This document shows, piece by piece, positions 15,138 through 39,456 of a stretch of 64,000 nucleotides of DNA (position 1 is its first letter; each line of letters begins with the position of its first letter). The notes below the pieces were generated by a model that searched no databases, was not told the DNA's origin, and saw only the letters and a list, made by a program, of their open reading frames with translations. A program made the translations under genes and the position numbers. The stretch is from Porphyromonadaceae bacterium H1 (GTDB lineage: Bacteria > Bacteroidota > Bacteroidia > Bacteroidales > Paludibacteraceae): contig BDEJ01000043.1 of assembly GCA_001653155.1 (NCBI GenBank), positions 1-64,000 on the forward strand. Reading direction: 5' to 3'.

Positions 15138-15758
15138 TTGAGCCGGATTAACCTTAGAAGTGTCAAATTGAATTCGGAAGATAAAATATTGGTTGAATTG
15201 CTTCAATCGGATTCTACTCATGCATTCGATTTGTTGTACAAACGCTATAGCGGCAAGTTGTACAACTTTGTCATGAAAATATCGAATTACGACGCCTACC
15301 GCTCGGAAGAGATTGTACAGCGCACTTTCATCAAAATTTGGGAGCTGCGAAAAGAACTGAATCCCGAGAAATCCTTCCATTCCTTTATCGGAACCATAGC
15401 ACGAAACATGTTGATGAACGAATATAACCACGAAGTAATCGAATATATTTACCGAAACTATATCGTCCGAAAAAAACAAGAGGCCGAAATCTCAACTTCT
15501 TCCGAAGAAAAGATCGAATACACATTTCTCACTCATTATCTCGATACGCTCATCGACGAACTCCCTTCAGCCTGCAAGGAAGTTTATCGCCTCAGCCGGC
15601 TGAATGCCTATAGCAATAAAGAAATAGCCTCTCGGCTTAGAAAATCGGAAAGCACAGTGGAGAAGCAGCTTATGAAGGCCAATAAATTCATACGTGAGAA
15701 GGTAAAACAACACTACGACAAGATATTTCTGACTTTGCTCCTTTGCAGCTTGTGCTAA
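15138..15758 (+). CDS. ECF-type RNA polymerase sigma factor (FecI-like)
   Basis: The protein has sigma region 2 at about residues 20-90 (DLLYKRYSGKLYNFV, then EEIVQRTFIKIWELR). Region 4 is at about 135-195, with the helix-turn-helix YSNKEIASRLRKSESTVEKQ. It lacks regions 1 and 3, as is usual for ECF factors. The first in-frame start that keeps region 2 whole is TTG at 15138; a second TTG is at 15168, and the first ATG comes too late (codon 46). In Bacteroidales such a factor, held by the FecR-like protein encoded next, activates the neighbouring SusC/SusD operon when SusC binds its ligand. The last residues (LTLLLCSLC) are unusually hydrophobic. The FecR gene starts 60 bp later. Confidence 0.88.
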   Translation: MSRINLRSVKLNSEDKILVELLQSDSTHAFDLLYKRYSGKLYNFVMKISNYDAYRSEEIVQRTFIKIWELRKELNPEKSFHSFIGTIARNMLMNEYNHEVIEYIYRNYIVRKKQEAEISTSSEEKIEYTFLTHYLDTLIDELPSACKEVYRLSRLNAYSNKEIASRLRKSESTVEKQLMKANKFIREKVKQHYDKIFLTLLLCSLC

Positions 15759-15818
15759 ATATTTAGCGAATGATAGAGGAGTTTTCCTCTTTGAATTGTA
15801 TAAAGTAAAAAAGAATAA

Positions 15819-16814
15819 ATGTCCGATCAAATAGTAAGTTTATTTGAGAAATATTTAGCCAACAGCGCCTCAGAGGCAGAAAAGTCTGAGCTGGACGGCT
15901 GGATAGCCCGTAACGAGGAATTACGGTCCTGGCTCGACTGCCAATTAGCGGACTCTCCGCAGTATATGGATGCAGCCCTACAACAGAAAATACTGGAAAA
16001 CATACATCAATTGCTAGTCCAACAGCAGAAAAAGAAGCGCCTCCGCTTGCCCTTTTGGACAAGATACGTTGCAGCAGCCGCGCTTGTACTCCTGCTCATC
16101 GGTAGCTTAGCAATCATTTGGCGAAACGATTCCAAGTCGGTTTTATATACCGAAGTCGAGGCTATTCGCGGGCAAAAGTCCACCGTTACACTGCCGGATG
16201 GAACGAAGGTGATACTCAACTCCGAATCAAAAATACGTTACGGTACAGACTTCAGCAAACCCAAACGCCGGGTGGAGTTGACCGGAGAAGCTTACTTTTA
16301 TGTTGCCACAGACAAAGACAAGCCCTTCGTCGTGCACGCCGGAGAGGTGTCGGTAAAAGCCTTAGGAACAAGCTTTAACGTTAGAGCCTACCCGGAAGAA
16401 AACTCGATCTCTACAACGCTGACCGAAGGACGAGTCGAGCTGGAAACCCCTTGTGAGAAAAAAAGTTTACAACCCAATCAGCGCCTCGAGTATGACTCCG
16501 GAAGCAAACAAACAGCTCTGATAGAGCTCAACGACGCTCAACAGTCTGTTGGCTGGCTCAACGACCAGCTCAGCTTCGAAAATGCCACCTTAGCGGAACT
16601 GGCAGGCAACCTAAGCAGAACTTATAACGTTGAAATCACCTTCTCTCCGGAATCCATCAAGGAACAACGCTTTACCGGATGCATACGAAACAACAGCTTA
16701 CAGTCTGTTCTGCGGATTCTTTCACTCACATCGCCCATCCGTTACGAAATACAAGAGCAGAAAATCATTCTCTACGAGGTACCGGGCGAGAGCAAGCTCT
16801 TCAAAAAGCCTTAA
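15819..16814 (+). CDS. FecR-type anti-sigma factor
   Basis: The 331-residue protein has an N-terminal cytoplasmic part (1-72) that would bind the sigma factor. A single transmembrane helix lies at about 75-97. A periplasmic FecR domain follows (about 108-205, with GQKSTVTLPDGTKVILNSES and the segment VKALGTSFNVRAY). The C-terminal domain (about 245-325) is of the DUF4974 type and resembles an STN fold. In this family the periplasmic part contacts the STN domain of the partner SusC and passes the signal to the sigma factor through the membrane. The gene lies between the sigma gene and the STN-bearing SusC, the canonical order for a trans-envelope signalling unit. Confidence 0.93.
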   Translation: MSDQIVSLFEKYLANSASEAEKSELDGWIARNEELRSWLDCQLADSPQYMDAALQQKILENIHQLLVQQQKKKRLRLPFWTRYVAAAALVLLLIGSLAIIWRNDSKSVLYTEVEAIRGQKSTVTLPDGTKVILNSESKIRYGTDFSKPKRRVELTGEAYFYVATDKDKPFVVHAGEVSVKALGTSFNVRAYPEENSISTTLTEGRVELETPCEKKSLQPNQRLEYDSGSKQTALIELNDAQQSVGWLNDQLSFENATLAELAGNLSRTYNVEITFSPESIKEQRFTGCIRNNSLQSVLRILSLTSPIRYEIQEQKIILYEVPGESKLFKKP

Positions 16815-17078: not shown

Positions 17079-20000
17079 ATGAAAACACATCTCTTCCGTT
17101 CTATCCAAGGAACGGTTACGTTACGGTATTTTTTATCCTTAGTTTTCTTTTTCTGGTTTTCGACACTTTTTTCACAAATCAGTATCAATGTCGAAAATCA
17201 ATCCATCCGCAGCATATTAAAGTCGATAGAAAGCCAGTCGAATCAGACTTTCTTTTTTAATGAAGGCTTACCCGAACTCGACAAGACCGCCTCGTTGAAA
17301 GTTAGCGGAGTAAGCTTAGAGGCTGCTCTCAAGAAACTATTCGAAAACACAGGTATCGCCTACAGCATCGAAGGGCAAACCATCGTCCTGACTTCGAAGT
17401 CCAAACTTCCGCCTCCGCCGGCATCATCGAAGGCGACTCTTTCCGGGCGTGTCGATATTTCCGGTTCCGTTACCGACGAGTCCGGCGAAGCCTTGCCCGG
17501 AGTATCGGTGGTAGTAAAAGGCAGTACGCAAGGCGTACTCACCAACGCAAAAGGAGTCTATAACCTCAAGAACGTTCCTGCTAACGGAAGCCTCGTGTTT
17601 ACTTATGTGGGAATGAAAAGTCTAGAAGTAGCCATTGAGAAGCAAAAACAAATCGACGTAAGCATGTCTTACGAGTCGAAAGAAATAGACGAATTGGTAA
17701 TCATCGGTTACGGAACGGTAAAGAAAAGAGACTTGACGGGCTCGGTAGCTTCCGTAAAGATGACGAATGTCAATACAATCTCAACCGCGTCTGTCATGCA
17801 AGCATTAAAAGGGAAAATAGCCGGATTAAGCATCATTCAAAACAGCGCCCAACCGGGTGGAGGATTGGATATATTGGTCCGAGGCGGTTCGGGCGGATCC
17901 AGATATACAGACGATACACCCTTGTATGTGATAGACGGAGTACCTGCTTTAGCTCTCGATCAACCCGGAAGTAACAACGAAAGGCTCAATGCCGGAACAC
18001 AAAGCATACTTAATTTTATCAACCCGAACGATGTCGCCTCAGTAGAAGTTTTGCGGGATGCCTCTGCAACAGCCATTTACGGAGCCCGGGCTGCAGCCGG
18101 TGTAATACTCATTACTACCAAAAGAGGTGAAACGGGTAAACCTCTCGTAAGCTATTCCAGCTCTTTTGCCCTGCAAAAACACAGCAACATTTTCGATGTG
18201 TTCTCGCTGAAAGAATGGATGGAGGAAAAAAACATCGCAAGTTGGGATTTCTGGATGTTCGATAACGGAGTAATACCCTATGGAAACCGAACATTGGAGA
18301 TAGCAATGAAATATCCGAAAAACGGCGTTGCTTATGAACTTCCTTACGATGACAATGATATCGCCCAAGCCGGCGAAGGTACGGATTGGGTCAATCTCGT
18401 TACCAGAGATGGTTCGATACAGCAACATAACTTAAGCCTACGAGGAGGCTCGTCGATGACCCAATATTTGCTATCGCTCAACTATTTCGACCATCAAGGA
18501 ATTATTAAAAATTCAGGGATAAAAAGGTATTCGACACGATTAAATTTTGACCAAACAATCAACAGAATCTTCAAAGCCGGTATAAATCTGACTCTGAATC
18601 GAGTTGAAAGTGATAATACCCCCTTAGGGGAAGAGCAGTACGAAAAATCGGGCTTGATACGCTCTGCAGTACAAATGGGTCCACACATCAAGGCCATAGA
18701 TGAAAACGGAAACTACCCGATCAATCCGCTTTTACCCACCCAACCCAATCCTTATTCACTGTTGTTGGTAACAGACGAGAGCCGGTCGGATCGCTTACTG
18801 GGGAACTTCTTCGTGACAATTGAGCCGCTCAAGAATCTCATATTCAAGCTAAATGCAGGCACCGATTTGGCTTATCAAACCCGCAATACTTATATGCCTA
18901 AGGCTACGCTACATGGTGGCCTTGCCGGAGGAGAGGCCGGCATCAGCCACACGAACTCCCAAAGTTTTTTGGCCGATATTCACGGAACATACACATTCGA
19001 TTTGAATAAGATACACCGCTTCACGATTATGGCAGGGGGTTCGGCCGAGAAAATTGTTTCCAATAGCCATTTTTTAGGAAACAATAAGTTCCTTACGGAT
19101 GGTTTTAAATGGTATAATCTCCAATCGGGTGAAGGTACGAGAAGAGTTGAGTCGTCAGGAGAAGAAAATCAAGTCCGTTCGGTGTTTTCACGGATTAATT
19201 ACAGCCTGATGGACCGCTATTTGTTTACCGGAACCTTCCGTATCGACGGAGCAAGCGTATTTGCAAAAAATCATAAATGGGGCTATTTCCCTTCGCTTGC
19301 ATTCGCCTGGAATATGGCAGAAGAACCCTTTATGGAGTTTGCCAAACCGACCTTGGACATGCTTAAACTACGACTGAGCTATGGCGAAACCGGAAACTCA
19401 AACATCCGGGAAAATGCATTTTTTACTTATTACGCGCAACACGCTTGGAACGACGGCACAAAAAAGCCACAGACCGGCGTTTTTACATTACAATTGGAGA
19501 ACCCCGACTTGAAATGGGAAACTACAGCAGTGTACAATGCAGGTATAAACCTGTCGCTCTTCAATAGTAAAGTAGACTTTTCATTCGATTATTTCAGACG
19601 GGTCACTTACGATTTGCTGCACCCTAAAGAGCTTAACTCCTACCACGATGTCAGCTTCGTAATGAGCAACATCGGTAAGATGCAGGGAAGCGGTTTTGAA
19701 ATCACATTGAATACCAAAAACTTCTCAAGAAAAAATTTCACCTGGCAAAGCGACTTCACCCTCTCGTTATACGAAAACCACTGGTTGGAGCGGGAACCCG
19801 ACTGGAAACCCAACATATATGAAAATATTAATGACCCCAAATACCCTCGTTACGGATATGTTGCCGAACGCATCCTGCAAATTGGCGATCCGCTTCCGGA
19901 AGCACAGCCCAATCTACTTCCGGGGCAGATTGTACTCAAGGATCTTAACGGTTACAAACGCGACTTAAACGGTGATCCTATATTTGAGAACGGTCGATTT

Positions 20001-20558
20001 CTCCTGACCGGAGGTCCCGACGGCATGATCGATGAAGCCGACATACAACTGTTGGGAAGTTACGATCCGGGACCGGTTATGGGTCTGACGAACCGATTCA
20101 CGCTCTATGACTTCGATTTCAGCTTTGACTTCAATGCGGTACTCGGACGCAAAATGGCAGATCCGACTTATCTTGCCTATGGAGCCAGTGCCGATGGAAT
20201 TGCACAGTATGGCTACAACGGGCTTCGGATTCTAAAAAAGCGCTGGATGCCCGAAAATCCTTCAACCACAATTCCAAGTTCTTTTTACGGATGGGAAAAA
20301 ACAGGAGGTTCTAAAGGGCCTGGAAACTGGTTCCTTCAAGATGCCTGGTACATCAGGTTACAAAGCATCACGCTGGGCTACCGCGTACCGATTAAGGGAG
20401 CATTGCAAAACGTATTCTCCTCTTTGCGTTTCTTTGCCGACGCGAGCAACCTCTTCGTCTTTACTCCCTACACAGGTTTGGACCCTGAAACCGATTCCTA
20501 TGCTGCCGCCTATCCGAATGCACGCACTTTTACGGTTGGTATTGATGTCAAGTTTTGA
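17079..20558 (+). CDS. SusC/RagA-type TonB-dependent transporter with STN signalling domain
   Basis: The 1,159-residue protein starts with a signal peptide (to about residue 32). It continues with an STN domain (about 33-98, NVENQSIRSILKSIES...), which contacts the FecR anti-sigma factor. A carboxypeptidase-regulatory-like domain follows (about 120-200), then the plug (from about 210, with GYGTVKKRDLTGSVASV and VLRDASATAIYGARAAAGVI), and a 22-strand barrel to the C-terminus. It would import glycan fragments across the outer membrane with energy from TonB-ExbBD, with the SusD protein as lid. The 264-bp upstream gap holds a small AGAGG/CCTCT stem (17003-17020) but no housekeeping promoter, consistent with ECF control. 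The SusD gene follows after 95 bp. Confidence 0.95.
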   Translation: MKTHLFRSIQGTVTLRYFLSLVFFFWFSTLFSQISINVENQSIRSILKSIESQSNQTFFFNEGLPELDKTASLKVSGVSLEAALKKLFENTGIAYSIEGQTIVLTSKSKLPPPPASSKATLSGRVDISGSVTDESGEALPGVSVVVKGSTQGVLTNAKGVYNLKNVPANGSLVFTYVGMKSLEVAIEKQKQIDVSMSYESKEIDELVIIGYGTVKKRDLTGSVASVKMTNVNTISTASVMQALKGKIAGLSIIQNSAQPGGGLDILVRGGSGGSRYTDDTPLYVIDGVPALALDQPGSNNERLNAGTQSILNFINPNDVASVEVLRDASATAIYGARAAAGVILITTKRGETGKPLVSYSSSFALQKHSNIFDVFSLKEWMEEKNIASWDFWMFDNGVIPYGNRTLEIAMKYPKNGVAYELPYDDNDIAQAGEGTDWVNLVTRDGSIQQHNLSLRGGSSMTQYLLSLNYFDHQGIIKNSGIKRYSTRLNFDQTINRIFKAGINLTLNRVESDNTPLGEEQYEKSGLIRSAVQMGPHIKAIDENGNYPINPLLPTQPNPYSLLLVTDESRSDRLLGNFFVTIEPLKNLIFKLNAGTDLAYQTRNTYMPKATLHGGLAGGEAGISHTNSQSFLADIHGTYTFDLNKIHRFTIMAGGSAEKIVSNSHFLGNNKFLTDGFKWYNLQSGEGTRRVESSGEENQVRSVFSRINYSLMDRYLFTGTFRIDGASVFAKNHKWGYFPSLAFAWNMAEEPFMEFAKPTLDMLKLRLSYGETGNSNIRENAFFTYYAQHAWNDGTKKPQTGVFTLQLENPDLKWETTAVYNAGINLSLFNSKVDFSFDYFRRVTYDLLHPKELNSYHDVSFVMSNIGKMQGSGFEITLNTKNFSRKNFTWQSDFTLSLYENHWLEREPDWKPNIYENINDPKYPRYGYVAERILQIGDPLPEAQPNLLPGQIVLKDLNGYKRDLNGDPIFENGRFLLTGGPDGMIDEADIQLLGSYDPGPVMGLTNRFTLYDFDFSFDFNAVLGRKMADPTYLAYGASADGIAQYGYNGLRILKKRWMPENPSTTIPSSFYGWEKTGGSKGPGNWFLQDAWYIRLQSITLGYRVPIKGALQNVFSSLRFFADASNLFVFTPYTGLDPETDSYAAAYPNARTFTVGIDVKF

Positions 20559-20653
20559 ATCGAATGAAGATGAAAGAAACACATAAGAGACAATTGCCCA
20601 ATTCAATAAATATATTCGCGTATCAACCAGATACGCTAAAAAACAAATACGCT

Positions 20654-22189
20654 ATGAAAACCCGCATCAAATATTTTTTCGCATATACAGCATTGGCCCT
20701 CTCGCTCACAGGATGCCAGCTGGATCCGATCAACTACGGAACGATGAATAAATCGAACTTCCCCAGAAACGAGTCCGACATCAGAGCCTTGGTATTGTCC
20801 TGTTACTATCCCTTGCGCGGGAGCTGGTGGAACGGCATCAACTCCAACTCGGAAAGAGGACAAATGTTTGTAAATGAAAGCTGCACCGAGGTTCTCGCCG
20901 GAAAATTCGGAGCACAAAAACTGTGTCATGAGCTATCTTTCAACGAAAGCAACGAAGAAATAACCTACTTCTACTACACTCGAAACGAGCCCTACGGTTT
21001 TTACGGAAAAGTGAGCCGTTGCACGCTGGTTTTAGACGAAATAGAGAATGCCGGTTATTTGAAAGAAGAAACAAAAAAGAAGTATATGGCCGAAGTTCGC
21101 TGTGCACGTGCTTATTTATCTTTCATCCTTTTCGACATGTACGGCCCTATTGTGGTTGCGCCATTGGAAGTACTCAAAAACCCATTGAAAGAAAAACCTT
21201 TGCCAAGACTGAGCAATGAAGAAATGGTGAAATTCATCGAAGACGATTTGCTATTTGCTGCCGAGCACCTTCCGATGCCTAAGGAAGCTGATTATGGAAA
21301 ATTCAGCCGGGCATTCGCAAAGACTTTGCTGATCAGACTATATCTGCATGAAACCGTACACGATAAGGCCTACTACAATAAAGTAGAAGCGCTTGCACGG
21401 GAATTGATGGAGCCTCAATACGGATTTAAGTTGGTTGAGAATTACCCCTCGTTGTTCGAATTTGCCGGCCAGACTAAAGAAAATCCGGAGTATATATTTG
21501 TAATTCCATCTTCAGTAGCAGGTCCCAATGAGTCGCAGTGGCACATGATGGTAATGCCTCCCGATTCGGATTCAAAAATAAAAGGTTGGGGTACGGTACA
21601 AAGTACCTGGTGGTTTTACGACACCTTCGAAGCGGATGACACACGCAAAACCTACCTTATTACAAGCTACATCAGCGCTGAAGACAACAAAGAGGTGAAC
21701 AGGAGCAATCCTAGAGCAACGATGGACTTAGGCCCCATTCCTCAAAAATACGAGATAGACCCGGATGTTCCCGGAAACAACGGTCTTAGTAATTTAGATA
21801 TGGTCATGTTTCGTTATCCCGAAGTCTTGCTGTCGTTGGCCGAAGCCCTTGTGATGAAACCCGGCGGCGCTCTCAATCAAGAGGCTGTAGATTTGATGAA
21901 TACCGTGCGGATAAGAGCCAAGCTTCAAGCCAAGCTGCTTTCCGACTTTCCCAGTAAGGAAGCCTTTATCGATCAGCTCCTGACCGAGCGAAGCCATGAG
22001 TTTTGGTGCGAAAACGGACAGTATCGCGCCGACCTGATTCGCTTCGATAAACTTTACGACCGGGTAATGCTATTAAACAACGATGTAGCTCCTCACGCAT
22101 CAAAAGACAAATATTTATACCCACTCCCCATATCCGTGATTGTGGACGGGAAGGGAGAAGTGAAACAGAATCCGGGTTATGCCCAATAA
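20654..22189 (+). CDS. SusD/RagB-type nutrient-binding lipoprotein (PUL1)
   Basis: The start at 20654 is chosen because it opens a lipoprotein signal (hydrophobic stretch, then LTGC). The frame also stays open upstream to 20555, but those codons do not look like a signal. The 511-residue protein has the helical SusD fold, with AEVRCARAYLSFILFDMYG in the TPR-like part and a C-terminal segment with ERSHEFWCENGQYRADLIRF and YPLPISV. It sits on the cell surface as the hinged lid of the SusC transporter and binds the glycan. The ligand cannot be predicted. The following DUF4832 gene starts 31 bp after its stop. Confidence 0.92.
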   Translation: MKTRIKYFFAYTALALSLTGCQLDPINYGTMNKSNFPRNESDIRALVLSCYYPLRGSWWNGINSNSERGQMFVNESCTEVLAGKFGAQKLCHELSFNESNEEITYFYYTRNEPYGFYGKVSRCTLVLDEIENAGYLKEETKKKYMAEVRCARAYLSFILFDMYGPIVVAPLEVLKNPLKEKPLPRLSNEEMVKFIEDDLLFAAEHLPMPKEADYGKFSRAFAKTLLIRLYLHETVHDKAYYNKVEALARELMEPQYGFKLVENYPSLFEFAGQTKENPEYIFVIPSSVAGPNESQWHMMVMPPDSDSKIKGWGTVQSTWWFYDTFEADDTRKTYLITSYISAEDNKEVNRSNPRATMDLGPIPQKYEIDPDVPGNNGLSNLDMVMFRYPEVLLSLAEALVMKPGGALNQEAVDLMNTVRIRAKLQAKLLSDFPSKEAFIDQLLTERSHEFWCENGQYRADLIRFDKLYDRVMLLNNDVAPHASKDKYLYPLPISVIVDGKGEVKQNPGYAQ

Positions 22190-22220
22190 GAAAATCCATC
22201 TACTGCTGAAAAGGAATAAC

Positions 22221-23663
22221 ATGAGAAAGAGGATGATAAACTGCCACGGCCTTTTACTTATCGGATGTATGCTGCTTAGCTCCTGTAAATCGCAGGAGCC
22301 GGGCACGCCCGACAACCAACTGCCAAAAATCGAGGTAAACTATACGGCGGATAACATCAGCAAATTTCCGAACCCCGAAAGAGGTTTTTATAAGTTCTCA
22401 AAAATAGATTTGGCTACAGGTAAAGAAGGCTTATCTCAGTCCCTCCTGACAAGCTATCGAAAGCACAACATCACCTTGGTAATGCGGATGTTTTATCTCA
22501 AACAATTTAGAGACAAGCCTCTGTCCCAAGTGGTATTGGATGAGATAGAGCGGGATTTTGCCACAGCACGTCGATCGGGAGTGAAGCTCATCGTACGTTT
22601 TGCCTACTCCGAAGCTAAAGAAGAGCCGGATGCTCCTCTCAATATCGTGCTGCAACATTTGGATCAGCTAAAACCTGTGTTACAAAAAAACCGGGATGTG
22701 ATTGCTATCGTCCAAGCCGGATTTATAGGAGCTTGGGGCGAGTGGTATTATACAAGCAACAATCTGAATAATGGCGGCGCACGACATAAAATAATCAAAA
22801 AGCTGCTTGAAGCCGTGCCGACAAAGAGATGTATTCAGCTACGCACTCCGGCCTATAAACACGAATACTTCAAACGCTCGACTCCTTTAACTTTTCAGGA
22901 AGCATTCAAGGATACCGAGATAGCACGAGTAGGGCATCATAACGATTGCTTCTTAGCAAGTTCGACAGACTACGGCACCTACATAAATCCGAAAGCCGAC
23001 AAAGCATTTCTGAATAAAGACTGCCTGTTTGTCCCGATTGGCGGGGAAACCTGTCCGCCGGATGGAGTAGATCCGGCCACATCATTGCAAGCTCAATCGG
23101 AAATGCGCCAGCTAAGGTGGAGTTATCTGAATGAAGATTATTATCAGGCTGTAAATGATATTTGGAAATTGGATGGCGGCATGGAAAATATAATACGGGA
23201 TTTAGGTTACAGATTCCAACTGACATCGGGCGAATACTCCAACAAGGTGAAACCGGGAGGGATTTTCAAAGCCCGCATCACGGTCAAGAATCTGGGCTAT
23301 GCCCCCTTATACAACCCTCGTTTGGTCGAGTTGATATTAGTAAACAGCCAATCGGACGAAAAATACCGATTGCGGATAAACTCCATCGAAGCCCGATTCT
23401 GGCAGCCTGCTGTATCCAGCGAGGTTAAAATAGAAGGGGGCTTACCCGCTGATATTGCAGCCGGGAGCTATAAACTCTATCTCAACCTGCCCGATCCGGA
23501 GGAAAGTTTATATTCCAATCCCGCATATTCCATCCGGCTGGCAAACAGCAACATGTGGGAGGAGGCGACAGGTTACAACAACCTGAATGTCAGCATTGAT
23601 GTTTCACCCGATCATGAAAGCGAAAGCTACACGGGGGACTGCATTTTCGAAAAGATAAAATAA
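22221..23663 (+). CDS. DUF4874/DUF4832-type surface lipoprotein, 480 aa
   Basis: The start at 22221 gives a lipoprotein signal ending LLSSC. The mature protein begins with FPNPERGFYKF, the mark of the DUF4874 N-terminal domain. It continues as a predicted (beta/alpha)-barrel-like region (ITLVMRMFYLKQF, KLIVRFAYSE, AGFIGAWGEWYYTSN). A C-terminal beta-sandwich of the DUF4832 type starts at about residue 330 (KARITVKNLGYAPLYNPR). The family is common in Bacteroidota glycan loci and looks like an uncharacterised glycoside-hydrolase-type fold; the paired acidic residues in GEW could be catalytic, which is inference. A related, more divergent copy lies at 35532-36806 in the same cluster. Confidence 0.8.
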   Translation: MRKRMINCHGLLLIGCMLLSSCKSQEPGTPDNQLPKIEVNYTADNISKFPNPERGFYKFSKIDLATGKEGLSQSLLTSYRKHNITLVMRMFYLKQFRDKPLSQVVLDEIERDFATARRSGVKLIVRFAYSEAKEEPDAPLNIVLQHLDQLKPVLQKNRDVIAIVQAGFIGAWGEWYYTSNNLNNGGARHKIIKKLLEAVPTKRCIQLRTPAYKHEYFKRSTPLTFQEAFKDTEIARVGHHNDCFLASSTDYGTYINPKADKAFLNKDCLFVPIGGETCPPDGVDPATSLQAQSEMRQLRWSYLNEDYYQAVNDIWKLDGGMENIIRDLGYRFQLTSGEYSNKVKPGGIFKARITVKNLGYAPLYNPRLVELILVNSQSDEKYRLRINSIEARFWQPAVSSEVKIEGGLPADIAAGSYKLYLNLPDPEESLYSNPAYSIRLANSNMWEEATGYNNLNVSIDVSPDHESESYTGDCIFEKIK

Positions 23664-23732
23664 TAACGACAAAAAGGGAGCTCGCTTTAAATGAGATCTT
23701 CCGTCTTACTTCACCTACTAAATCCGATCGAT

Positions 23733-31970: not shown

Positions 31971-33758
31971 ATGAAAACAACATGCCAATATCTTTTCATT
32001 GCGCTCATTACGGCATCTTTGGCGGTTATTCCTGCCTGTAAAACAGATGAGCCTGTAAAACCCAATGAGAAAAAACCGAAAGTGGAAAATCTGGTCGTGA
32101 CACCCACAAGCGACTTAAAATACGGAGACAAAATAACAGTAAGCGCGAATCTCTCCGACGAAGTGGGCCTACGTATGTACACCATACAAATGAGCAATTC
32201 TACCGGAAGCATTTATTCCAAAAGCGAAATGCTTACCGGAAAAGCATTTACCTTAAACCTGGAGTTACCCATTCCGCTACCCAAGAATGCCGTTGCCGGC
32301 GACATGAAAATCGCTATCACGGTGAAGAATTCGGGTAACCAGCTGGCAACCGCCGAAAATGTGATCAAAAATTTGGCCTTACCAAGTTTCGAGCAACTCT
32401 ATCTCATTATCAACAGCACCGCCTTTCCCATGATCAAAAACGGAGATGTGTATGAAACGGAAGATTTTTTCCCAGCTGAGGCCAAAGGAAAAATCTATGC
32501 AAATCCCGACAAAAGCGGTTTGTATTGGGGTGAAGAAAATGCTGAAATTAAAGCATTGGGAGCAAACGACATTGTCATCGGAAAAGACGAAGAAAAATTT
32601 TTCAAAGTTTCTTTCAATCCCGTCAGCTTTACACTGACAATGGGCAATCCGCAAGATTGGAAACCTATGGACGAAAGTTTATATATCTACGGAGATATTT
32701 CGGGACATTGGGCAGATGGGGAGATAAAAGAAGAAAAAAAACACGTAAAAATGAAAGGACTCACTCTGGGCAACTGGAAAATGTGGACTTGGACTCCACC
32801 CAATACAGGATCAGAAAAACCGGGTGACGACATGTGGGGAAACATTAAAGCCGGACAGTTCCGCTTCAAAAAAGCCGGTAAGGAGGAATACATTACCTAC
32901 AGTGCCGGACAAATTGTTACGGGTGCCGATAACAAAGCGAACAGCTTCGTAATAACAGATGGCGGCAATTATACCTTTAAGATTTTTGCCAATTCCGACA
33001 ATGCGATTCAAGAAGTGCGCATGGATAACGGCAACAGAAGATTGGTTTACAAAAACGACGGCATCTATATCAATGGAACCAAAGCGGGTTCGGCAATTAC
33101 GTTTGCAGGCAGCTCTCTGACATTAAAGCCGGGCCACTTTTTCGCATACGAAGGCACACTTAATCTAAACAAGGACCAAAGCATCAGCGCATCAGGTGTT
33201 GATTTGCGGCAGGCATTCTGCGATCCCGATGTATTTACAGGAAAAGGTAACAGCACTTGGAGTTGCATACAAGCTTCCGGCGAGTATTACGTCTGCATCG
33301 ATGCTTTCTCGGGCAATATTTATATCCGCAACAACAAAGGCTATCCCGACGCCATCTATATGGATGGATGGAGCTGGGGAAAATTCAAAGATAACGCGAA
33401 AGGCGACTGGGAACCCTCATCAAGACTGACCCTTTACAAAACAGGCACTGGCAATGTGTATGAGGGCCAACTTTACATATATCCTTGGGGTGGCGATGTC
33501 TCCTTCTTTGCGGCACCGGCAATCGAAGGCAGCGACTTCGCGAAACGCGAAATTTTTGGGAAATACTTCGAAAACGTACTCTTAAACGGGAACAACGTCA
33601 AATTTCCCGAAGGATTGGCAGAAGGTTACTATAAAGTTTCCGTTGATCTCAAAGACGGCTTCACTTTCGATACTGCCCAACAGGACGGAACTACAACAAA
33701 TTACCTGTTATTACCCACAAATAACAAGAAATTTACGGTAAAATTCACCCCGCTATAA
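31971..33758 (+). CDS. SusE/SusF-position surface glycan-binding lipoprotein (DUF5125/DUF5121-like), 595 aa
   Basis: The signal ends VIPACK, so the protein is lipidated. The sequence starts with an Ig-like domain (about 35-135, LVVTPTSDLKYGDKITVSANL), followed by repeated beta-sandwich units with aromatic-rich loops (WKPMDESLYIYGDISGHWAD; MDGWSWGKFKDN; YIYPWGGDVSFF). These resemble the tandem binding modules of SusE/SusF and of the DUF5125/DUF5121 lipoproteins of Bacteroidales glycan loci. Exposed tryptophans suggest carbohydrate stacking. No catalytic residues were recognised. It lies downstream of the CBM9-like gene, and its stop is followed by two strong hairpins before the GH31 gene, so it may close the first, more highly expressed part of the operon. 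Confidence 0.75.
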   Translation: MKTTCQYLFIALITASLAVIPACKTDEPVKPNEKKPKVENLVVTPTSDLKYGDKITVSANLSDEVGLRMYTIQMSNSTGSIYSKSEMLTGKAFTLNLELPIPLPKNAVAGDMKIAITVKNSGNQLATAENVIKNLALPSFEQLYLIINSTAFPMIKNGDVYETEDFFPAEAKGKIYANPDKSGLYWGEENAEIKALGANDIVIGKDEEKFFKVSFNPVSFTLTMGNPQDWKPMDESLYIYGDISGHWADGEIKEEKKHVKMKGLTLGNWKMWTWTPPNTGSEKPGDDMWGNIKAGQFRFKKAGKEEYITYSAGQIVTGADNKANSFVITDGGNYTFKIFANSDNAIQEVRMDNGNRRLVYKNDGIYINGTKAGSAITFAGSSLTLKPGHFFAYEGTLNLNKDQSISASGVDLRQAFCDPDVFTGKGNSTWSCIQASGEYYVCIDAFSGNIYIRNNKGYPDAIYMDGWSWGKFKDNAKGDWEPSSRLTLYKTGTGNVYEGQLYIYPWGGDVSFFAAPAIEGSDFAKREIFGKYFENVLLNGNNVKFPEGLAEGYYKVSVDLKDGFTFDTAQQDGTTTNYLLLPTNNKKFTVKFTPL

Positions 33759-33836: not shown

Positions 33837-33876
33837 ACTCTCTCGCAAACACAATAAGCAACATTCTAATGAAATT

Positions 33877-35484
33877 ATGATGCCGAAGCAAGCTCTTATA
33901 TCTGTTTTACTCTTATTCAGCACTTGCTCGTTTGTAGCTTTTTCTCAGCACAGCATTCCCGTCGAAGAGGGAGAATTCTGGTATGGCGGCGCAGTAAACG
34001 AAGGGGACAAAATGCCCATGAAAGAAGGCTATTCCAATAGTCTGATTAATTTCATACAAGGCAATCAGGCCGCTCCTCTGCTTATTTCCTCCAAAGGCCG
34101 TTACATCTGGAGCGAGGCTCCCTTTGCCTGGAAGTTGCAGGAGGGCAAACTCATTATTACCGAGAATAAAAGCCCCATCGACTTGCAGAAAGGCGGAAAC
34201 AATCTGAAAGGAGCCTACCGGACGGCTTCCAAAAAGTATTTCCCCACCATGGGAAAGATGCCGGACACAACGCTTTTTATTGCCCCGCAGTACAACACTT
34301 GGATTGAGCTGATTTACAATCAAAATCAAGAGGATATTCTAAAATACGCCCGAAGCATCGTTAACAATAATTATCCGCCGGGGGTATTGATGATAGACGA
34401 TAACTGGGCGCCGTATTACGGTAAATTTGAATTCCGTAAGGATCGCTTCCCCGATGCCAAAGCCATGGTGGACGAACTCCATGCCCTCGGATTCAAGGTG
34501 ATGTTGTGGGTATGTCCCTTCATTTCGCCGGATACGGAGGTATTCAGAGAGTTGCACAAGGATAGCCTACTGTTGATGAGCAACGAAGGGAAGGCTGAAA
34601 TGAAGCGTAGGGAAGCACAAGATCCGGCACTAATCAATTGGTGGAATGGCTACAGTGCCGTATTGGACTTCAGCAACCCTCGTGCCGCCCTGTGGTTCGA
34701 TAAGCAATTGGAAAGTGTGGTAAAACGTTACGGCATAGACGGATTTAAGCTGGATGCCGGCGATCCCGAGTTCTACGCCGGAAACACAGTCTCCTACGTA
34801 AAAGGCACTGCGCCCAACGAACACTGCGAACTCTTCGGAATGTTCGGACTGAAGTATCCGTTAAACGAGTATCGAGCCATGTGGAAGCGGGGTGGCCAAC
34901 CCTTGGCCGAGCGCTTAAGGGATAAATTCCATACTTGGGAGGATCTCCGGAAACTGATTCCGCACATCACAATTTCGGGATTACTCGGATATGCTTTTAC
35001 CTGTCCCGACATGATCGGAGGAGGTGATTATTCCTCCTTTATCGATGGAAAATCCTTGGATCAGGAGCTAATCGTACGCTCCGCTCAGTGCCATGCTCTG
35101 ATGCCGATGATGCAGTTTTCGGTAGCCCCTTGGCGCATACTCGACAGCAAGCACCACGAAGCCGTAAAAAAAGCCGTTGCGCTGCGCCAAACCCTCATAC
35201 CGGAATTGATGCTGTGGGTACGAAATGCAGCCGAAACGGGCGAACCGATCGTCCGGAGTATGGAGTACGAATTTCCGGGACAAGGTTTCGAGGCTTGTCA
35301 AGATCAATTCATGTTAGGAAATCGCATTTTGGTAGCACCGATGCTCGTGAAAGCGACCCAACGCGCAGTAAAATTTCCTGCCGGAGTCTGGCTTGGGAGC
35401 GATGGGAAAAAATATAAAGGTAGTAGTCAGCAAGTTTTCAATGTGCCGATAGATACCTTATTATGGTTCCGCAAAATCAAATAA
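33877..35484 (+). CDS. GH31-family glycoside hydrolase
   Basis: The 535-residue protein has a signal peptide (1-24), an N-terminal beta domain and a (beta/alpha)8 barrel. Barrel marks are GVLMIDDNWAPYYGKFEF, GFKVMLWVCPFIS and GIDGFKLDAGD. In GH31 enzymes the last motif carries the nucleophile (Asp293); Asp378 in CPDMIGGGD fits the acid/base. A C-terminal beta domain follows. The KLDAGD and DMIGG wording differs from classical alpha-glucosidases (WxDMNE) and resembles the GH31 branch that includes MYORG-type alpha-galactosidases, so an alpha-galactosidase or other alpha-glycosidase role is possible. It is exported, probably periplasmic. The next gene starts 47 bp after the stop. Confidence 0.85.
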   Translation: MMPKQALISVLLLFSTCSFVAFSQHSIPVEEGEFWYGGAVNEGDKMPMKEGYSNSLINFIQGNQAAPLLISSKGRYIWSEAPFAWKLQEGKLIITENKSPIDLQKGGNNLKGAYRTASKKYFPTMGKMPDTTLFIAPQYNTWIELIYNQNQEDILKYARSIVNNNYPPGVLMIDDNWAPYYGKFEFRKDRFPDAKAMVDELHALGFKVMLWVCPFISPDTEVFRELHKDSLLLMSNEGKAEMKRREAQDPALINWWNGYSAVLDFSNPRAALWFDKQLESVVKRYGIDGFKLDAGDPEFYAGNTVSYVKGTAPNEHCELFGMFGLKYPLNEYRAMWKRGGQPLAERLRDKFHTWEDLRKLIPHITISGLLGYAFTCPDMIGGGDYSSFIDGKSLDQELIVRSAQCHALMPMMQFSVAPWRILDSKHHEAVKKAVALRQTLIPELMLWVRNAAETGEPIVRSMEYEFPGQGFEACQDQFMLGNRILVAPMLVKATQRAVKFPAGVWLGSDGKKYKGSSQQVFNVPIDTLLWFRKIK

Positions 35485-35531
35485 GACAGACGCAAAAACA
35501 ACAAGTTAATTTTCAACTCAATCTGCTGAAC

Positions 35532-36806
35532 ATGAAAGCAAAGCCTTTATGGACGACAATGTGTTTTATCTGGCTTCTATCAATGGCTTGTGGAGAATCC
35601 AAGCAACAGCCGGATAAGATGGAATACCAGGCCCTCCCCCTCCAGAGCAGCATCGACTCGGTAGCGCCAATGACCGGAATCGTATTGTGGACGAACAACC
35701 CCCTGAATTACACGCAAGCTATTTCTTTGGAATTCTCCTACATGCTCTACAAGGATGTGGTAAAAGCCAAAGGGGTTTACGACTGGAGCAGTGTGGACAG
35801 ATTGCTCGAAGCAGTAGCTTCACGAGGGCATCATGCCATTCTGCGCTTTCGCTATGTATACGTTGGAGACAAAGAAAGCGCTGTACCTCAATACATCCGC
35901 GACTTACCGGACTACGAGGAGACAATCGCTATCAGCGAGGGACGCGAAACCTGCTTCCCCGATTGGCGGCATCCTGAACTACAACGTTTCCATCTTGAAT
36001 TTCATAAAAAACTGGCCGAAAGATACAACCACGATAAGCGGATTGCTTTTCTCCAAACCGGTTTCGGGCTTTGGGCGGAATACCATATTTATCAAGGCAG
36101 CTTTATTCTGGGAAGAACCTTTCCTTCGAAAGATTTTCAAGCCCGATTTTTTCGTGTAATGAATGAAAACTTTACCGAACTGCCGTGGAGCATCTCCAAA
36201 GATGCGGCCAACGAGCAATATTCACCTTTTTCCGCACAAGCCGAGCTAAAAAAGCTGAAATTCGGAATCTTCGACGATTCGTTTATGCACGAAAAACACG
36301 ACGAATACAATACCGATTGCTGGAACTTCTTCGACCGGAACCGTTATAAGCACTCTCCTGCCGGGGGCGAGTTCGGGTATTATCGCGATTACGACCAAAG
36401 GCATGTGCTTGACCCAGAGGGAATATACGGAAGAAATTTCGAGTCGGAGGCAAAAAAATTTCACATTACCTACATGATTGGTAACGATCAGCCTCGATAT
36501 CAATCTTTAGAAAGGATCAAAGAAGCAAGCATGGCCTGCGGCTACAAATTCAGCATTACTCGATTTGCCGCATCAAGCGATTCGGTATTGGTAGAAATAA
36601 AAAACACAGGCGTGGCTCCCATTTACCGGGATGCCTATGTGACGGTAGATGGAATAAGATCCTCGAAATCGCTACGTAAACTGCAACCTAACAGCAGAAT
36701 GCGTCTTGCATTTAAACGAAAAACAGCTAAGCCTCAGCTGAGCATTGAAAGCGATTTCCTGCTTGAGGGACAAAAAATTAAATTTGCAGCAGATTTAAAA
36801 CAATAA
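35532..36806 (+). CDS. Second DUF4832-type lipoprotein, 424 aa
   Basis: The start at 35532 gives a lipoprotein signal (LLSMACG); the frame is open from 35463 and overlaps the GH31 end. The protein has a barrel-like region with SLEFSYMLYKDVVKAKGVYDW, HHAILRFRYVY and FLQTGFGLWAEYHIYQGSF. A C-terminal sandwich (about 340-424) carries the wording VEIKNTGVAPIYRDAYV, close to the DUF4832 end of the first copy. The NPERGF opening of the first copy is missing. The conserved acidic residue in GLWAEYH matches GEWYY of the other copy in position. The function is unknown; a surface glycoside hydrolase or binding protein is plausible. It lies between the GH31 and GH109-like genes. Confidence 0.75.
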   Translation: MKAKPLWTTMCFIWLLSMACGESKQQPDKMEYQALPLQSSIDSVAPMTGIVLWTNNPLNYTQAISLEFSYMLYKDVVKAKGVYDWSSVDRLLEAVASRGHHAILRFRYVYVGDKESAVPQYIRDLPDYEETIAISEGRETCFPDWRHPELQRFHLEFHKKLAERYNHDKRIAFLQTGFGLWAEYHIYQGSFILGRTFPSKDFQARFFRVMNENFTELPWSISKDAANEQYSPFSAQAELKKLKFGIFDDSFMHEKHDEYNTDCWNFFDRNRYKHSPAGGEFGYYRDYDQRHVLDPEGIYGRNFESEAKKFHITYMIGNDQPRYQSLERIKEASMACGYKFSITRFAASSDSVLVEIKNTGVAPIYRDAYVTVDGIRSSKSLRKLQPNSRMRLAFKRKTAKPQLSIESDFLLEGQKIKFAADLKQ

Positions 36807-36822
36807 CTTAAAAAAAACAATT

Positions 36823-38247
36823 ATGAAGAAAAACATCCTATTGGCACTCGCAGTAATTCTGGCAGCCGGGCTGCAGACACAGTGCGTTAAGAGCGATAAG
36901 CATTCACAAGGGCAAGAAGCAAAAATAATTAAAACAGAAACACCTTCTCGACCGGCAGGACAGGAACACGCCCTGCTAATGACGGCTCCCAAGCTCGATA
37001 CCGTGAGAGTCGGATTTATTGGTTTGGGTATGCGCGGTCCGAGCGCCGTAGAGCGTTTCACACACATCGAAGGCGTAAAAATCCTTGCTCTCTGCGACAT
37101 ATACCAACAACAAGTAGATAGTTGCCAAAATATTTTACGGCGGGCAGGCTGGCCCGAGGCCACAGGTTATGCCGGCAGCCCCGAGGCTTGGAAGCAACTC
37201 TGCGAACGAAGCGACATTGATTTGGTGTACATCTGTACGGATTGGCGCTCGCATGCTGAAATGGCGCTTTACGCTATGGAACGAGGTAAGCACGTAGCCA
37301 TAGAAGTACCCGCCGCTATGAATATGAAAGACATCTGGGCGCTCATCGATGCATCCGAAAGGACACGGAAACACTGCATGATGCTTGAAAACTGCATTTA
37401 CGATTTCTTCGAACTCACCACCCTCAATATGGCCCAACAAGGAGTTTTCGGTGAAATACTCCATGCTGAAGGTGCATACATCCACAATTTGGACGAAATA
37501 TGGGAACTCTATTGGAACAACTGGCGACTCGATTACAACGAGCAGCACCGTGGCGACGTATATCCCACACACGGAATCGGTCCGGTTTGCCAAGCGCTGG
37601 ACATACATCGCGGAGACAAAATGAACTACTTGGTATCCGTTGACACCAAAGCCGTAAACGGCCCGGCAACGGTAAAAAGACTGCAAGGAAGGGAAAGCAG
37701 CAACTTCAAGAACGGAGACCATACCATGACCATGATACGCAGCGAAAAGGGAAAAACCATCCTCATACAGCACAACGTAATGACTCCCCGTCCCTACAGC
37801 CGCATGTATCAGCTTACCGGAACCGACGGATTTGCCAACAAATATCCGATAGAAGGCTATGCCTTACGCCCGAAGCAGTTAACCGGAGAAGGAAAACTGA
37901 TTGAGAATTTCTCGGCACACGACTTCCTTTCCGAAAAAGCCAAAGAAGCCCTGATGGAGAAATACAAACACCCCATATTGAAAGACATCGAAGAAAAAGC
38001 TAAAAAAGTAGGTGGACACGGAGGTATGGACTTCATCATGGATTATCGCTTGATTTACTGCCTGCGCAACGGCCTGCCTCTCGACATGGATGTGTACGAC
38101 ATGGCTGAATGGTGCTGCTTGACGGAACTGACAGCCATTTCGCTCGAAAACAACAGTGCCCCGGTAGAAATACCCGATTTCACGCGAGGTGCATGGAATC
38201 AAGTACAGGGATACCGACACGCCTTTGCCGAACAAACGGGGAAATAG
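36823..38247 (+). CDS. Gfo/Idh/MocA-fold protein resembling GH109 alpha-N-acetylgalactosaminidase
   Basis: The 474-residue protein has an N-terminal export signal. A Rossmann domain follows (VRVGFIGLGMRGP at about 52-64, then LALCDIY), then an oxidoreductase-type C-terminal domain. The segments GKHVAIEVPAAM, QHRGDVYPTHGIGPV (His250) and ALDIHRGDKMNYLVS closely follow the wording of GH109 enzymes, which bind NAD tightly and cleave terminal alpha-GalNAc (blood-group A type) by a redox-assisted mechanism. An ordinary sugar dehydrogenase is less likely, because the protein is exported. Specificity beyond alpha-linked HexNAc cannot be read from sequence. It is 16 bp after the DUF4832 gene and belongs to the same transcript. 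Confidence 0.82.
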   Translation: MKKNILLALAVILAAGLQTQCVKSDKHSQGQEAKIIKTETPSRPAGQEHALLMTAPKLDTVRVGFIGLGMRGPSAVERFTHIEGVKILALCDIYQQQVDSCQNILRRAGWPEATGYAGSPEAWKQLCERSDIDLVYICTDWRSHAEMALYAMERGKHVAIEVPAAMNMKDIWALIDASERTRKHCMMLENCIYDFFELTTLNMAQQGVFGEILHAEGAYIHNLDEIWELYWNNWRLDYNEQHRGDVYPTHGIGPVCQALDIHRGDKMNYLVSVDTKAVNGPATVKRLQGRESSNFKNGDHTMTMIRSEKGKTILIQHNVMTPRPYSRMYQLTGTDGFANKYPIEGYALRPKQLTGEGKLIENFSAHDFLSEKAKEALMEKYKHPILKDIEEKAKKVGGHGGMDFIMDYRLIYCLRNGLPLDMDVYDMAEWCCLTELTAISLENNSAPVEIPDFTRGAWNQVQGYRHAFAEQTGK

Positions 38248-38322
38248 AGAGCAGGAAAAAACGACCCGACATAGAGGTTTAAAGCGTAATCGCATCAGTT
38301 TCACCACAAAAAGAAAAGACGA

Positions 38323-39456
38323 ATGAGGACGCAAAAACATAGTGTAAATCCGAGCGAGAGGCTTGCTTCGCTCGACATACTACGAGGTTTCGATCTGTTT
38401 ATGCTCGTATTTTTCCAGCCCGTATTTGTAGAGCTGGCTGCGCATTGGGCAGACATGCCTCTCTTCGATTTTCTGCTCCGGCAGTTCGAACACGAAGATT
38501 GGGTGGGTTTTCGAGCTTGGGACTTGGTCATGCCTCTCTTCCTCTTTATGGTGGGAGCAGCCATGCCTTTCTCTTTCGAAAAATTCAAGCAGGCTAGCGA
38601 CAAATCGGCTATTTACCGAAAAATCATCCGCCGCTTCATCATTCTGTTCGTGTTGGGCATGGTGGTGCAAGGCAATTTACTGAGCTTTGATCCCAAGCAG
38701 ATACGCCTCTACTCCAACACGCTTCAGGCAATTGCCACCGGCTATCTGATAGCGGCAATCTTTCAGTTGCATCTATCCAAACGAGGACAGTACATAGCCA
38801 CAGCCCTCCTTCTGACGGGATATTGGGCCTTGCTGAGCATCTTCGGCGATTTTACTCCCGAAGGGAACTTCGCCGAGCAGGTTGACCGGCTCCTACTCGG
38901 ACGCTTCCGCGACGGTGTGAGTTATAACCCCGACGGCAGCTGGCAATTCGATCCCAATTACCGCTACACCTGGATGCTCTCCGGAATGACCTTTGCCGTA
39001 ACGGTGATGCTGGGAGTTTTTGCCGGAAAAATCATGAAAAACGGTAGTGACAAACGAAAAAACAGCCTCCGTCTTTTCATTTGGGGAGTGGCGCTGATAG
39101 CCGCCGGATTGCTAATGGGATTACAAACTCCCATTATCAAGAAAATCTGGTCGAGCAGCATGACCCTCTATTCGGGTGGTTTGTGCTTCCTGCTGATGGC
39201 GCTTTTCTACTACGTGGTCGATTACAGGAAAAAATCCAAAGGCTTGGAGTGGCTCAAAATATACGGCATGAACTCCATTGTAGCCTATACTTTGGGTATG
39301 GTAGTCGATTTCAGAAGCATTGCCCATTCCCTCTTGTGGGGACTGGAGACATACGCACAAGACTACTATCCGGTATTGCTCAGCTTCGCCAATTTTCTGA
39401 TTCTTTTCTTTATTCTCCGGCTGATGTACCGGGCCAAAGTATTTGTGAAGATCTAA
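38323..39456 (+). CDS. Heparan-alpha-glucosaminide N-acetyltransferase-like membrane protein (DUF5009/NagX type)
   Basis: The 377-residue protein has about ten transmembrane segments. Near the N-terminus are the two family motifs SLDILRGFDLF and GFRAWDLVMPLFLFMVGAAM. Related proteins (HGSNAT in lysosomes; NagX in bacteria) pass acetyl groups from cytosolic acetyl-CoA across the membrane to amino sugars. It would act in the inner membrane, possibly acetylating glucosamine-type sugars released in the periplasm. It is the last gene of the PUL1 row, 75 bp after the GH109-like gene and just before a strong terminator. The link to the locus's substrate is inferred from position. Confidence 0.78.
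   Translation: MRTQKHSVNPSERLASLDILRGFDLFMLVFFQPVFVELAAHWADMPLFDFLLRQFEHEDWVGFRAWDLVMPLFLFMVGAAMPFSFEKFKQASDKSAIYRKIIRRFIILFVLGMVVQGNLLSFDPKQIRLYSNTLQAIATGYLIAAIFQLHLSKRGQYIATALLLTGYWALLSIFGDFTPEGNFAEQVDRLLLGRFRDGVSYNPDGSWQFDPNYRYTWMLSGMTFAVTVMLGVFAGKIMKNGSDKRKNSLRLFIWGVALIAAGLLMGLQTPIIKKIWSSSMTLYSGGLCFLLMALFYYVVDYRKKSKGLEWLKIYGMNSIVAYTLGMVVDFRSIAHSLLWGLETYAQDYYPVLLSFANFLILFFILRLMYRAKVFVKI

Follow-up and report, generated by a model that had tools for sequence, protein, structure and literature searches.

Which glycan is served by a locus that places phosphoesterases, glycoside hydrolases (GH) and a predicted membrane acetyltransferase behind one SusC/SusD pair? The locus lies at positions 15138-39456 of a 64,000-nucleotide stretch of contig BDEJ01000043.1 of Porphyromonadaceae bacterium H1; this whole stretch is called the window here. 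An earlier note, made from the sequence alone, had described one unit of 13 genes on one strand. We confirmed 13 consecutive open reading frames (ORFs), all on the + strand, in an order that is kept in the metagenome-assembled genome (MAG) ADurb.Bin174 (G453; locus L043). Our analysis suggests that this is one polysaccharide utilization locus (PUL) for a polymer of alpha-linked galactose/(partly de-N-acetylated) N-acetylgalactosamine (GalNAc), likeliest alpha-1,4-linked as in Pel or galactosaminogalactan, a prediction to which we give about an even chance. The polymer used by the window variant probably carries phosphate. Pfam bore out the gene list of the earlier note apart from its CBM9 label and its second DUF4832 label. 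The genes are as follows, the percentage at the end of each line being the identity to the counterpart in G453.

15138..15758, + strand: extracytoplasmic function (ECF) sigma factor with a TTG start (Sigma70_r2, Sigma70_r4_2); 61%
15819..16814, + strand: FecR anti-sigma factor (FecR, FecR_C); 58%
17079..20558, + strand: SusC TonB-dependent transporter with an STN signalling domain (STN, CarbopepD_reg_2, Plug); 70%, and 51% in oral Prevotella (L185)
20555..22189, + strand: SusD surface lipoprotein (SusD_RagB; lipobox LTGC); 82%
22179..23663, + strand: DUF4832a, a DUF4874-DUF4832 lipoprotein and putative endo-glycoside hydrolase (Pfam 2e-62 and 1.5e-52); 65%
23691..26993, + strand: MPE1, metallophosphoesterase-like, 1100 aa, with an N-terminal region that is beta-helix-like by eye, Big_2, purple acid phosphatase (PAP) N domain plus Metallophos, and a type IX secretion system (T9SS) tail; 73%
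27007..30624, + strand: MPE2, 1205 aa, with a DUF5123 beta-helix-like N-terminal region, PAP N domain plus Metallophos, and a CBM11-like domain; 46%
30685..31932, + strand: T9SS-exported glycan-binding candidate, the CBM9-like protein of the earlier note (Por_Secre_tail; TIGR04183 23.6 bits, cut-off 23); 46%
31971..33758, + strand: SusE-position surface lipoprotein candidate (weak DUF4625; lipobox by eye); 61%, and 37% in L185
33877..35484, + strand: GH31 alpha-galactosidase candidate, nucleophile D293 and acid/base D349 by alignment to MYORG (best PDB match 8j50; MYORG 7qqf); 70%
35463..36806, + strand: DUF4832b, second DUF4832-related lipoprotein (lipobox by eye), putative hydrolase (weak Pfam match; hhalign; alignment of 4); 67%
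36823..38247, + strand: GH109 NAD-dependent alpha-N-acetylgalactosaminidase candidate, with H250 and Y247 in a YPTHG motif (Glyco_hydro_109_C; 6t2b, 2ixa); 75%
38323..39456, + strand: NagX/HGSNAT-type (DUF5009) inner-membrane N-acetyltransferase candidate (human HGSNAT 8vkj, E 1e-10; NagX model, E 3.5e-53); 81%

Gaps within the locus are short or overlapping, the largest being 264 bp (5' of SusC) and 118 bp (5' of GH31). Pfam supports ECF sigma, FecR, SusC with STN, SusD, DUF4874 with DUF4832, two Metallophos proteins with the PAP N domain, GH31, GH109 and DUF5009. Adjacent SusC and SusD genes (17079-20558 and 20555-22189) are thus co-located with glycan-active enzymes and a regulator, as in a PUL, and the unit is kept in G453. 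There, all 13 genes stand in identical order at 46-82% identity beside different neighbours, and since the whole order is kept, the grouping is not due to chance. The window locus is flanked by tRNA-Lys (14679-14752) on the left and by priA, dnaN and an exonuclease gene on the right. Past the last locus gene of L043 the next ORFs lie on the opposite strand, with sizes unlike those of the window, and the 20 kb of G453 holding the left end showed no tRNA; because these flanks differ, the borders can be placed about where the earlier note had them. For SusD the listed start is TTG, and an internal ATG (Met34), directly 5' of the signal peptide, is probably the true start; an internal ATG (Met24) is the probable start of DUF4832b. 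A promoter scan was at chance level (29 sites against 29.2 expected), and a terminator scan gave 25 against 22.7. Relatives do not generally carry the locus: MPE2 gave only weak partial matches in 60 other genomes (best E 2e-19, 27%), and matches at E<=0.001 in 17 of 61 genomes with its own genome counted. On contig C40 of G453 (L152), the DUF4832a gene is tandemly duplicated (second copy 63%) in an otherwise collinear 13-gene locus.

The best PDB match of the GH31 protein, the solved GH31 alpha-galactosidase 8j50, aligned along 508 residues (E 2e-208) and human MYORG (7qqf) along 419 (E 6e-59), and the remaining GH31 members of the PDB were far weaker (E 4e-21 and worse). MYORG has D463 as nucleophile and D520 as acid, with D353/D354 and K461 also named (PMC9491548; this and the other papers cited here are represented by excerpts). 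These residues stand opposite D293, D349, D174/D175 and K291 of the window protein (MYORG chain numbers in the alignment being those of the paper minus 78), and these window positions are invariant in 7 of 7 relatives. With near full-length homology to 8j50, one of the group 8j50-8j53, and the catalytic Asp pair that it shares with that group and MYORG, the protein is a candidate of the alpha-galactosidase type, its linkage specificity being predicted only. The label alpha-glycosidase in the earlier note was therefore too unspecific. Alpha-glucosidase and alpha-xylosidase were ruled out, alpha-galactosidases being the best PDB relatives by a very wide margin.

The GH109 protein has a Rossmann domain and a GH109 C domain, is closest in the PDB to 6t2b (E 2e-92) and 2ixa (E 2e-63), and keeps the His and Tyr of the YPTHG motif; the role of His228/Tyr225 of 2ixa in GH109 is one that we presume. 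The DUF5009 protein matches the NagX model over its full length with 181 bits, and since the NCBIfam equivalog cut-off is 480, we filed it as a family relative and not as NagX. Its His57 stands opposite His297 of HGSNAT, the catalytic histidine (PMC9007349), and His57 together with D18xxR21, the DxxR motif described in PMC12423673, is invariant in 9 of 9 relatives. What the earlier note labelled HGSNAT-like is a membrane protein homologous to NagX and lysosomal HGSNAT, with the catalytic His and the DxxR motif intact. Terminal alpha-glucosamine has to be acetylated by HGSNAT before it becomes open to a glycosidase (PMC9007349, PMC12423673), and five bacteria involve NagX in their use of glucosamine (PMC9007349), whereas the acceptor of the window protein is predicted to be galactosamine. 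NagX is also distantly related to a putative N-acetylmuramate transporter (PMC9007349), and the NagX-like protein may have a transport role; according to PMC12423673, no DUF5009 protein has been confirmed by experiment. By its family, the protein suggests that a free amino sugar is N-acetylated.

Taken together, GH31 would imply terminal alpha-galactose, GH109 terminal alpha-GalNAc, NahK (a GalNAc-1-kinase) GalNAc catabolism, and NagX-type acetylation a free amino group in the substrate. This supports the earlier claim of amino-sugar (GalNAc) functions in one glycan-utilization unit. Pel and fungal galactosaminogalactan are polymers with alpha-linked, partly de-acetylated galactosamine, and galactosaminogalactan also holds alpha-1,4-galactose.

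The DUF4832 proteins are the putative chain-cutting enzymes. An AlphaFold2 model of DUF4832a (pLDDT 86.2, 15 sequences) showed a TIM barrel with a C-terminal beta-sandwich; its best PDB folds were GH5 (Z 13.8, 236 residues, 4.2 A) and, tied with it, beta-amylase (Z 13.1, 243 residues, 4.2 A). We noticed no GH114, GH135 or GH166 enzyme in the structure matches listed, which is no evidence against them. All 15 of 15 sequences have E188 and E290, which lie near barrel strands 4 and 7, and E206 and E303 of DUF4832b occupy the aligned positions; a catalytic role is predicted for these residues, and both proteins would be TIM-barrel hydrolases, their activity here being putative. The second DUF4832 label of the earlier note fell below the Pfam cut-off (21.5 bits against 29.2), but a profile comparison supports the homology of this protein to DUF4832a (hhalign probability 90.9). 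The DUF4832 hydrolase SIR_1591 of the Streptococcus intermedius pel cluster disperses Pel aggregates, and Pel is described as rich in alpha-1,4-linked GalNAc (PMC12345266). DUF4832a, with its TIM barrel and DUF4832 domain, resembles SIR_1591, for which a TIM barrel, a C-terminal DUF4832 and a beta-amylase/beta-galactosidase-like fold are reported; the likeness is one of described domains and fold. In contrast, SIR_1591 is part of a Gram-positive Pel synthesis cluster, and the window proteins belong to an uptake locus. A further DUF4874-DUF4832-type protein with a T9SS tail is encoded in the same genome (G000:C64:30946-33036), with an aspartokinase/homoserine dehydrogenase gene upstream.

We determined how far this gene set recurs by scanning named genomes with a GH31 alignment and keeping 80 of 544 confirmed relatives. 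These 80 loci, 1.42 Mb in total and many ended by contig ends, were searched by tblastn (E<=1e-6). DUF4832a was found in 24, NagX-like in 22, GH109 in 14, SusC in 38, SusD in 13, FecR in 16 and ECF in 12; rarer were the 'CBM9' protein (6), MPE2 (4), DUF4832b (3), MPE1 (1) and SusE (1). Among 395 genomes of the class, 11 held DUF4832a (E<=1e-15), 7 held GH31 (E<=1e-40) and 5 both. With the window genome excluded, 4 of 394 shared both (GH31 6, DUF4832a 10; hypergeometric P 3e-6). Since three of the four sharing genomes are of one genus, the fair figure is that per genus, with 2 shared (4 and 7 of 196, P 0.006). The two genes lay in one neighbourhood in G361, G174 and G167 and apart in G421.

Loci with orthologous SusC/SusD (SusC 45-70%, or SusD 45% where SusC was cut off) numbered eight (G453/L043, L062, L074, L075, L085, L098, L138, L185). 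DUF4832a was present in all eight, GH31 in seven (not L138), the NagX-like protein in seven (not L098) and GH109 in three (L043, L075, L085). Six of these loci had been found via GH31 and two (L138, L185) via DUF4832, so that the counts of these two families are biased and that of the NagX-like protein is not. Besides oral bacteria the carriers include Bacteroidota whose genus names suggest soil or sea, and several orders are represented. Mucilaginibacter rigui, Parapedobacter defluvii and Sphingobacterium chuzhouense are among the named genomes with the core. The smallest form, in Prevotella sp. oral taxon 299 (L185), reads SusC-SusD-DUF4832-NagX-SusE-GH31, with identities of 51% (SusC), 54% (SusD), 37% (DUF4832a), 45% (NagX-like), 37% (SusE) and 46% (GH31); no other member of the set was recognised in the 29 kb read. 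This six-gene core of a human oral Prevotella lies at 9153-20277 of L185, where the record has no annotated features.

A fuller form occurs in Mucilaginibacter (L068), where SusC, SusD, a PKD lipoprotein, NagX-like, DUF4832 and GH31 genes are followed by a kinase, CBM9_2, a major facilitator superfamily (MFS) transporter, GH109, an epimerase and NagB. The kinase matched N-acetylhexosamine 1-kinase structures (E 7e-64), the transporter matched NagP below and the gluP subfamily above cut-off, and the epimerase was recognised as GalE and the last gene as NagB, both above cut-off. With L068/L067 proteins as queries (E<=1e-10), the 80 GH31 loci gave NahK in 15, CBM9_2 in 11, NagB in 7, GalE in 6 and MFS in 6. 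A beta-helix protein of L067 had no match among the window proteins. The window genome has its own NahK (44%) on another contig, beside a CBM9_2-like protein. A NagX-like protein (E<=1e-30) was found in 62 of 395 genomes, and the five best matches besides the window genome (G361, G421, G288, G382, G174) all lie in such loci. Ten NagX-like loci were inspected, of which one was a related PUL (L153) and nine were not, L155 having a distant NahK and L158 a distant GH109. In the lineage of L138, L144 and L153, the NagX-like protein, GH109 and NahK appear to be the amino-sugar heart, because L138 and L144 are without GH31 (that of G421, the genome of L144, is located elsewhere) and L153 is also without DUF4832; this suggests a galactosamine-only version of the substrate.

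In the scheme that we infer, in which substrate, linkage, activities, order of steps and locations are all predicted, the ECF/FecR pair and the STN domain of SusC would sense substrate uptake and turn the locus on. Outside the cell, phosphate groups would be removed by the exported phosphoesterases. The chain would be bound by the CBM-like protein together with SusD and the SusE-position lipoprotein, and would be cut endo-wise by the two DUF4832 lipoproteins. Oligosaccharides would be imported by SusC/SusD, and a periplasmic GH31 would remove terminal alpha-galactose. By analogy, an exo-N-acetylgalactosaminidase should halt at each free galactosamine unless this is acetylated. The NagX/HGSNAT-type protein would acetylate the exposed galactosamine across the inner membrane with cytosolic acetyl-CoA, and GH109 would then remove the resulting alpha-GalNAc, like HGSNAT and the next glycosidase on lysosomal heparan. 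GalNAc would pass to NahK, encoded elsewhere here and inside the locus in many relatives. Of the binding proteins, that at 30685-31932 had no CBM match in Pfam, the T9SS tail alone being found, so that the earlier CBM9 label is left without Pfam support, and the sole Pfam match of that at 31971-33758 was DUF4625 (28.1 bits, cut-off 27).

Several observations weigh against this account. The sequence shows the unit, its protein families, the conserved active-site residues and the recurring core; substrate and activities are predictions, and NahK lies outside the locus in this genome. DUF4832 is broader than Pel, being listed in a Klebsiella exopolysaccharide cluster and in a rumen Ruminococcus cellulosomal dockerin protein. 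Six of nine other DUF4832 neighbourhoods held none of the set, L139 had only SusC/SusD and a PKD protein, and 56 of the 80 GH31 loci were without DUF4832a within the stretch covered. Variants exist without GH31 (L138, L144), without GH109 (L185) and without both GH31 and DUF4832 (L153). For the 8j50 group, a preference for alpha-1,4-galactobiose is presumed. MYORG, the nearest enzyme in the papers cited here, favours Gal-alpha1,4-Glc and, in the excerpts of PMC9491548, does not significantly process Gal-alpha1,4-Gal, which weakens a simple transfer of specificity to the window GH31. MPE1/MPE2 orthologues occur in one of the eight orthologous SusC/SusD loci (G453), so that phosphate is perhaps incidental. 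One metal-ligand His is lost in MPE2.

The alternative that survives best, which we still consider unlikely, is a phosphate-linked glycan that contains galactose as well as (N-acetyl)galactosamine, for instance the teichoic acid, a cell-wall polysaccharide or the capsule of a Gram-positive, in which the phosphoesterases would be central and Pel-type polymers uninvolved. It draws on the two large phosphoesterases, of which at least MPE1 has a T9SS tail and intact metal motifs (DSH, GD, GNHD, H, GHDH). Tails above the TIGR04183 cut-off were found in MPE1 and the 'CBM9' protein among 54 matches genome-wide, and MPE2 was absent from these 54. The last metal motif of MPE2 is GDDH (GNCH in the G453 orthologue) in place of GHxH, and its residues 16-207 match the PL6 lyase 7dmk. 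The catalytic half of MPE1 modelled as a purple acid phosphatase of plant type (Z 24.6, 372 residues, 3.9 A; the model being moderately confident, pLDDT 68.7), with the PAP N domain and the metallophosphoesterase fold. This is a monoesterase fold, which tells against a phosphate-linked chain. The Tyr metal ligand, which we take to lie in GDxxY of purple acid phosphatases, is absent from MPE1 (GDFVE and DSH), and we predict a metallophosphoesterase-like protein without filing it as a true purple enzyme.

A PAP-type gene adjoins a NagX-like gene in G445, G349, G401 and L107, and GDPD or more phosphodiesterase-type genes stand in two Pfam-scanned loci of the first three, which also favours a phosphate glycan. 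Set against this, orthologues of MPE1 and MPE2 were found in one of eight SusC/SusD loci, although L098 has a phosphoesterase of another type; a Metallophos protein was recognised by hidden Markov model in 8 of the 80 GH31 loci, a count with no background rate beside it (adjoining GH31 in L045, L046, L087 and L098); and the core occurs without recognised phosphoesterases in L185 and others. By Pfam of L045, L087 and L098, the phosphoesterase of L087 is PhoD-like. The only close MPE1 homologue among the 395 genomes, the window genome aside, was in G167 (42%, E 2.5e-131), which also has GH31 and DUF4832, but it lies alone, outside any PUL. Phosphoesterases as the defining core were thus ruled out, being missing from most related loci. 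By the earlier note, its reading would be refuted if homologues of the DUF4832 and phosphoesterase genes did not accompany this SusC/SusD pair in related genomes; the outcome was split, with DUF4832 present in 8/8 and phosphoesterase orthologues in 1/8, and emphasis should shift from phosphoesterases to the core of DUF4832, NagX-like, GH31 and GH109. A phosphorylated substrate is plausible, though unproven: the pel clusters of Gram-positives combine DUF4832 with a CotH kinase and a polyphosphate polymerase (PMC7112168, PMC12345266), and phosphate recurs likewise in the SIR_1591 cluster, which has a CotH-type kinase and a polyphosphate polymerase domain (PMC12345266).

Two side observations concern these enzymes. 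In three genomes (L182 8059-10649, L183 7817-10482, L184 5459-10533), a PAP-type phosphoesterase gene lies directly beside a NagX-like acetyltransferase gene, perhaps as a separate phospho-aminoglycan system; by Pfam of L182 and L184, the former adds a GDPD gene and the latter SusC/SusD and two more phosphoesterase-type genes. GH31 and the adjacent phosphoesterase gave identical scores in L045 (Parabacteroides MAG) and L046 ('Eubacteriales' MAG), and the latter MAG may be mis-binned.

Somewhat less probable still is a host-glycan PUL, in which GH31 and GH109 would remove alpha-1,4-galactose from P1/globo structures and alpha-GalNAc from the mucin core, blood group A or Forssman antigen. The GH109 enzyme BT4243 of Bacteroides thetaiotaomicron, which has a GalNAc kinase as its partner, attacks the GalNAc of Tn, blood group A and Forssman structures (PMC11992087), the core is present in oral Prevotella, and Bacteroidales G167 has SusC/SusD, a distant DUF4832 and GH31 together. 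Among the closest known systems is the B. thetaiotaomicron PUL BT4240-50 (mucin core-1/Tn, GalNAc metabolism), likewise a SusC/SusD PUL with a GH109 alpha-N-acetylgalactosaminidase, where GalNAc ends in a GalNAc-1-kinase related to the Bifidobacterium longum N-acetylhexosamine kinase (PMC11992087). That locus holds GH2, an M60-like peptidase and the kinase (PMC11992087), whereas the window locus has putative DUF4832 hydrolases, GH31, phosphoesterases and the NagX-like acetyltransferase. Its genome encodes NahK at another place, and none of the 13 proteins matched GH2 or M60. Nor did Pfam recognise a hexosaminidase, fucosidase, sialidase, beta-galactosidase or mucin-peptidase family among them; many named carriers belong to genera that by name are of soil or sea (Mucilaginibacter, Pedobacter, Gelidibacter; habitat being inferred); and a host glycan leaves an acetyltransferase for a free amino sugar unexplained. 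Of the substrates in the earlier note, host O-glycan and teichoic acid are possible, but an alpha-linked Gal/GalN(Ac) exopolysaccharide agrees better with the companion genes.

It is improbable that the polymer is of the predicted class while the activity of the NagX-like protein is confined to free galactosamine monosaccharide, with no part in depolymerization, since the role of NagX in glucosamine utilization (PMC9007349) and the full-length match to NagX are offset by the lack of any galactosaminidase family releasing free galactosamine recognised in the locus by Pfam (DUF4832 specificity being open), by the description of GH109 enzymes as N-acetylgalactosaminidases, and by HGSNAT, the other characterised relative, which works on chain ends.

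Elsewhere in the window, a second PUL of starch/maltodextrin type lies at 48063-63929 on the - strand, with SusC, SusD, an X25-like protein, three GH13-type proteins (one with a weak T9SS tail), GH53, an MFS transporter and a LacI-type sugar-binding protein; metG and a glycosyltransferase gene adjoin it. A bacterial alpha-2-macroglobulin of 1859 aa is encoded at 3506-9085 on the + strand, with a thioredoxin-like protein adjoining at 1391-3433.

The predicted exopolysaccharide locus looks like a PUL, a known kind of system, whose gene set would be undescribed to judge by the literature matches listed; no galactosaminogalactan or Pel PUL was among the open-access matches listed, where the three DUF names occur in 6 papers and DUF4832 by itself in 4. 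It is tentatively the first uptake/degradation system for cationic galactosamine exopolysaccharides, in which trans-membrane re-acetylation of chain-end galactosamine, as a bacterial counterpart of the lysosomal HGSNAT step, would enable an exo-alpha-N-acetylgalactosaminidase and, in this Bacteroidales variant, exported phosphatases would serve a phosphorylated polymer, matching the phosphate genes of Gram-positive pel clusters; we hold this possible, with less confidence than the substrate class itself. Bacterial and fungal biofilms have Pel and galactosaminogalactan as protective polymers of their matrix, and HGSNAT is the enzyme missing in Sanfilippo disease type C. If the reading is true, a bacterial system eating Pel or galactosaminogalactan would offer new matrix-dispersing enzymes and would model the Sanfilippo C acetylation step in bacteria. 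It would also give DUF5009 membrane proteins a first role, and DUF4832/DUF4874 a role in uptake loci. The question is broad, since the core is found in several orders of Bacteroidota, human oral Prevotella included.

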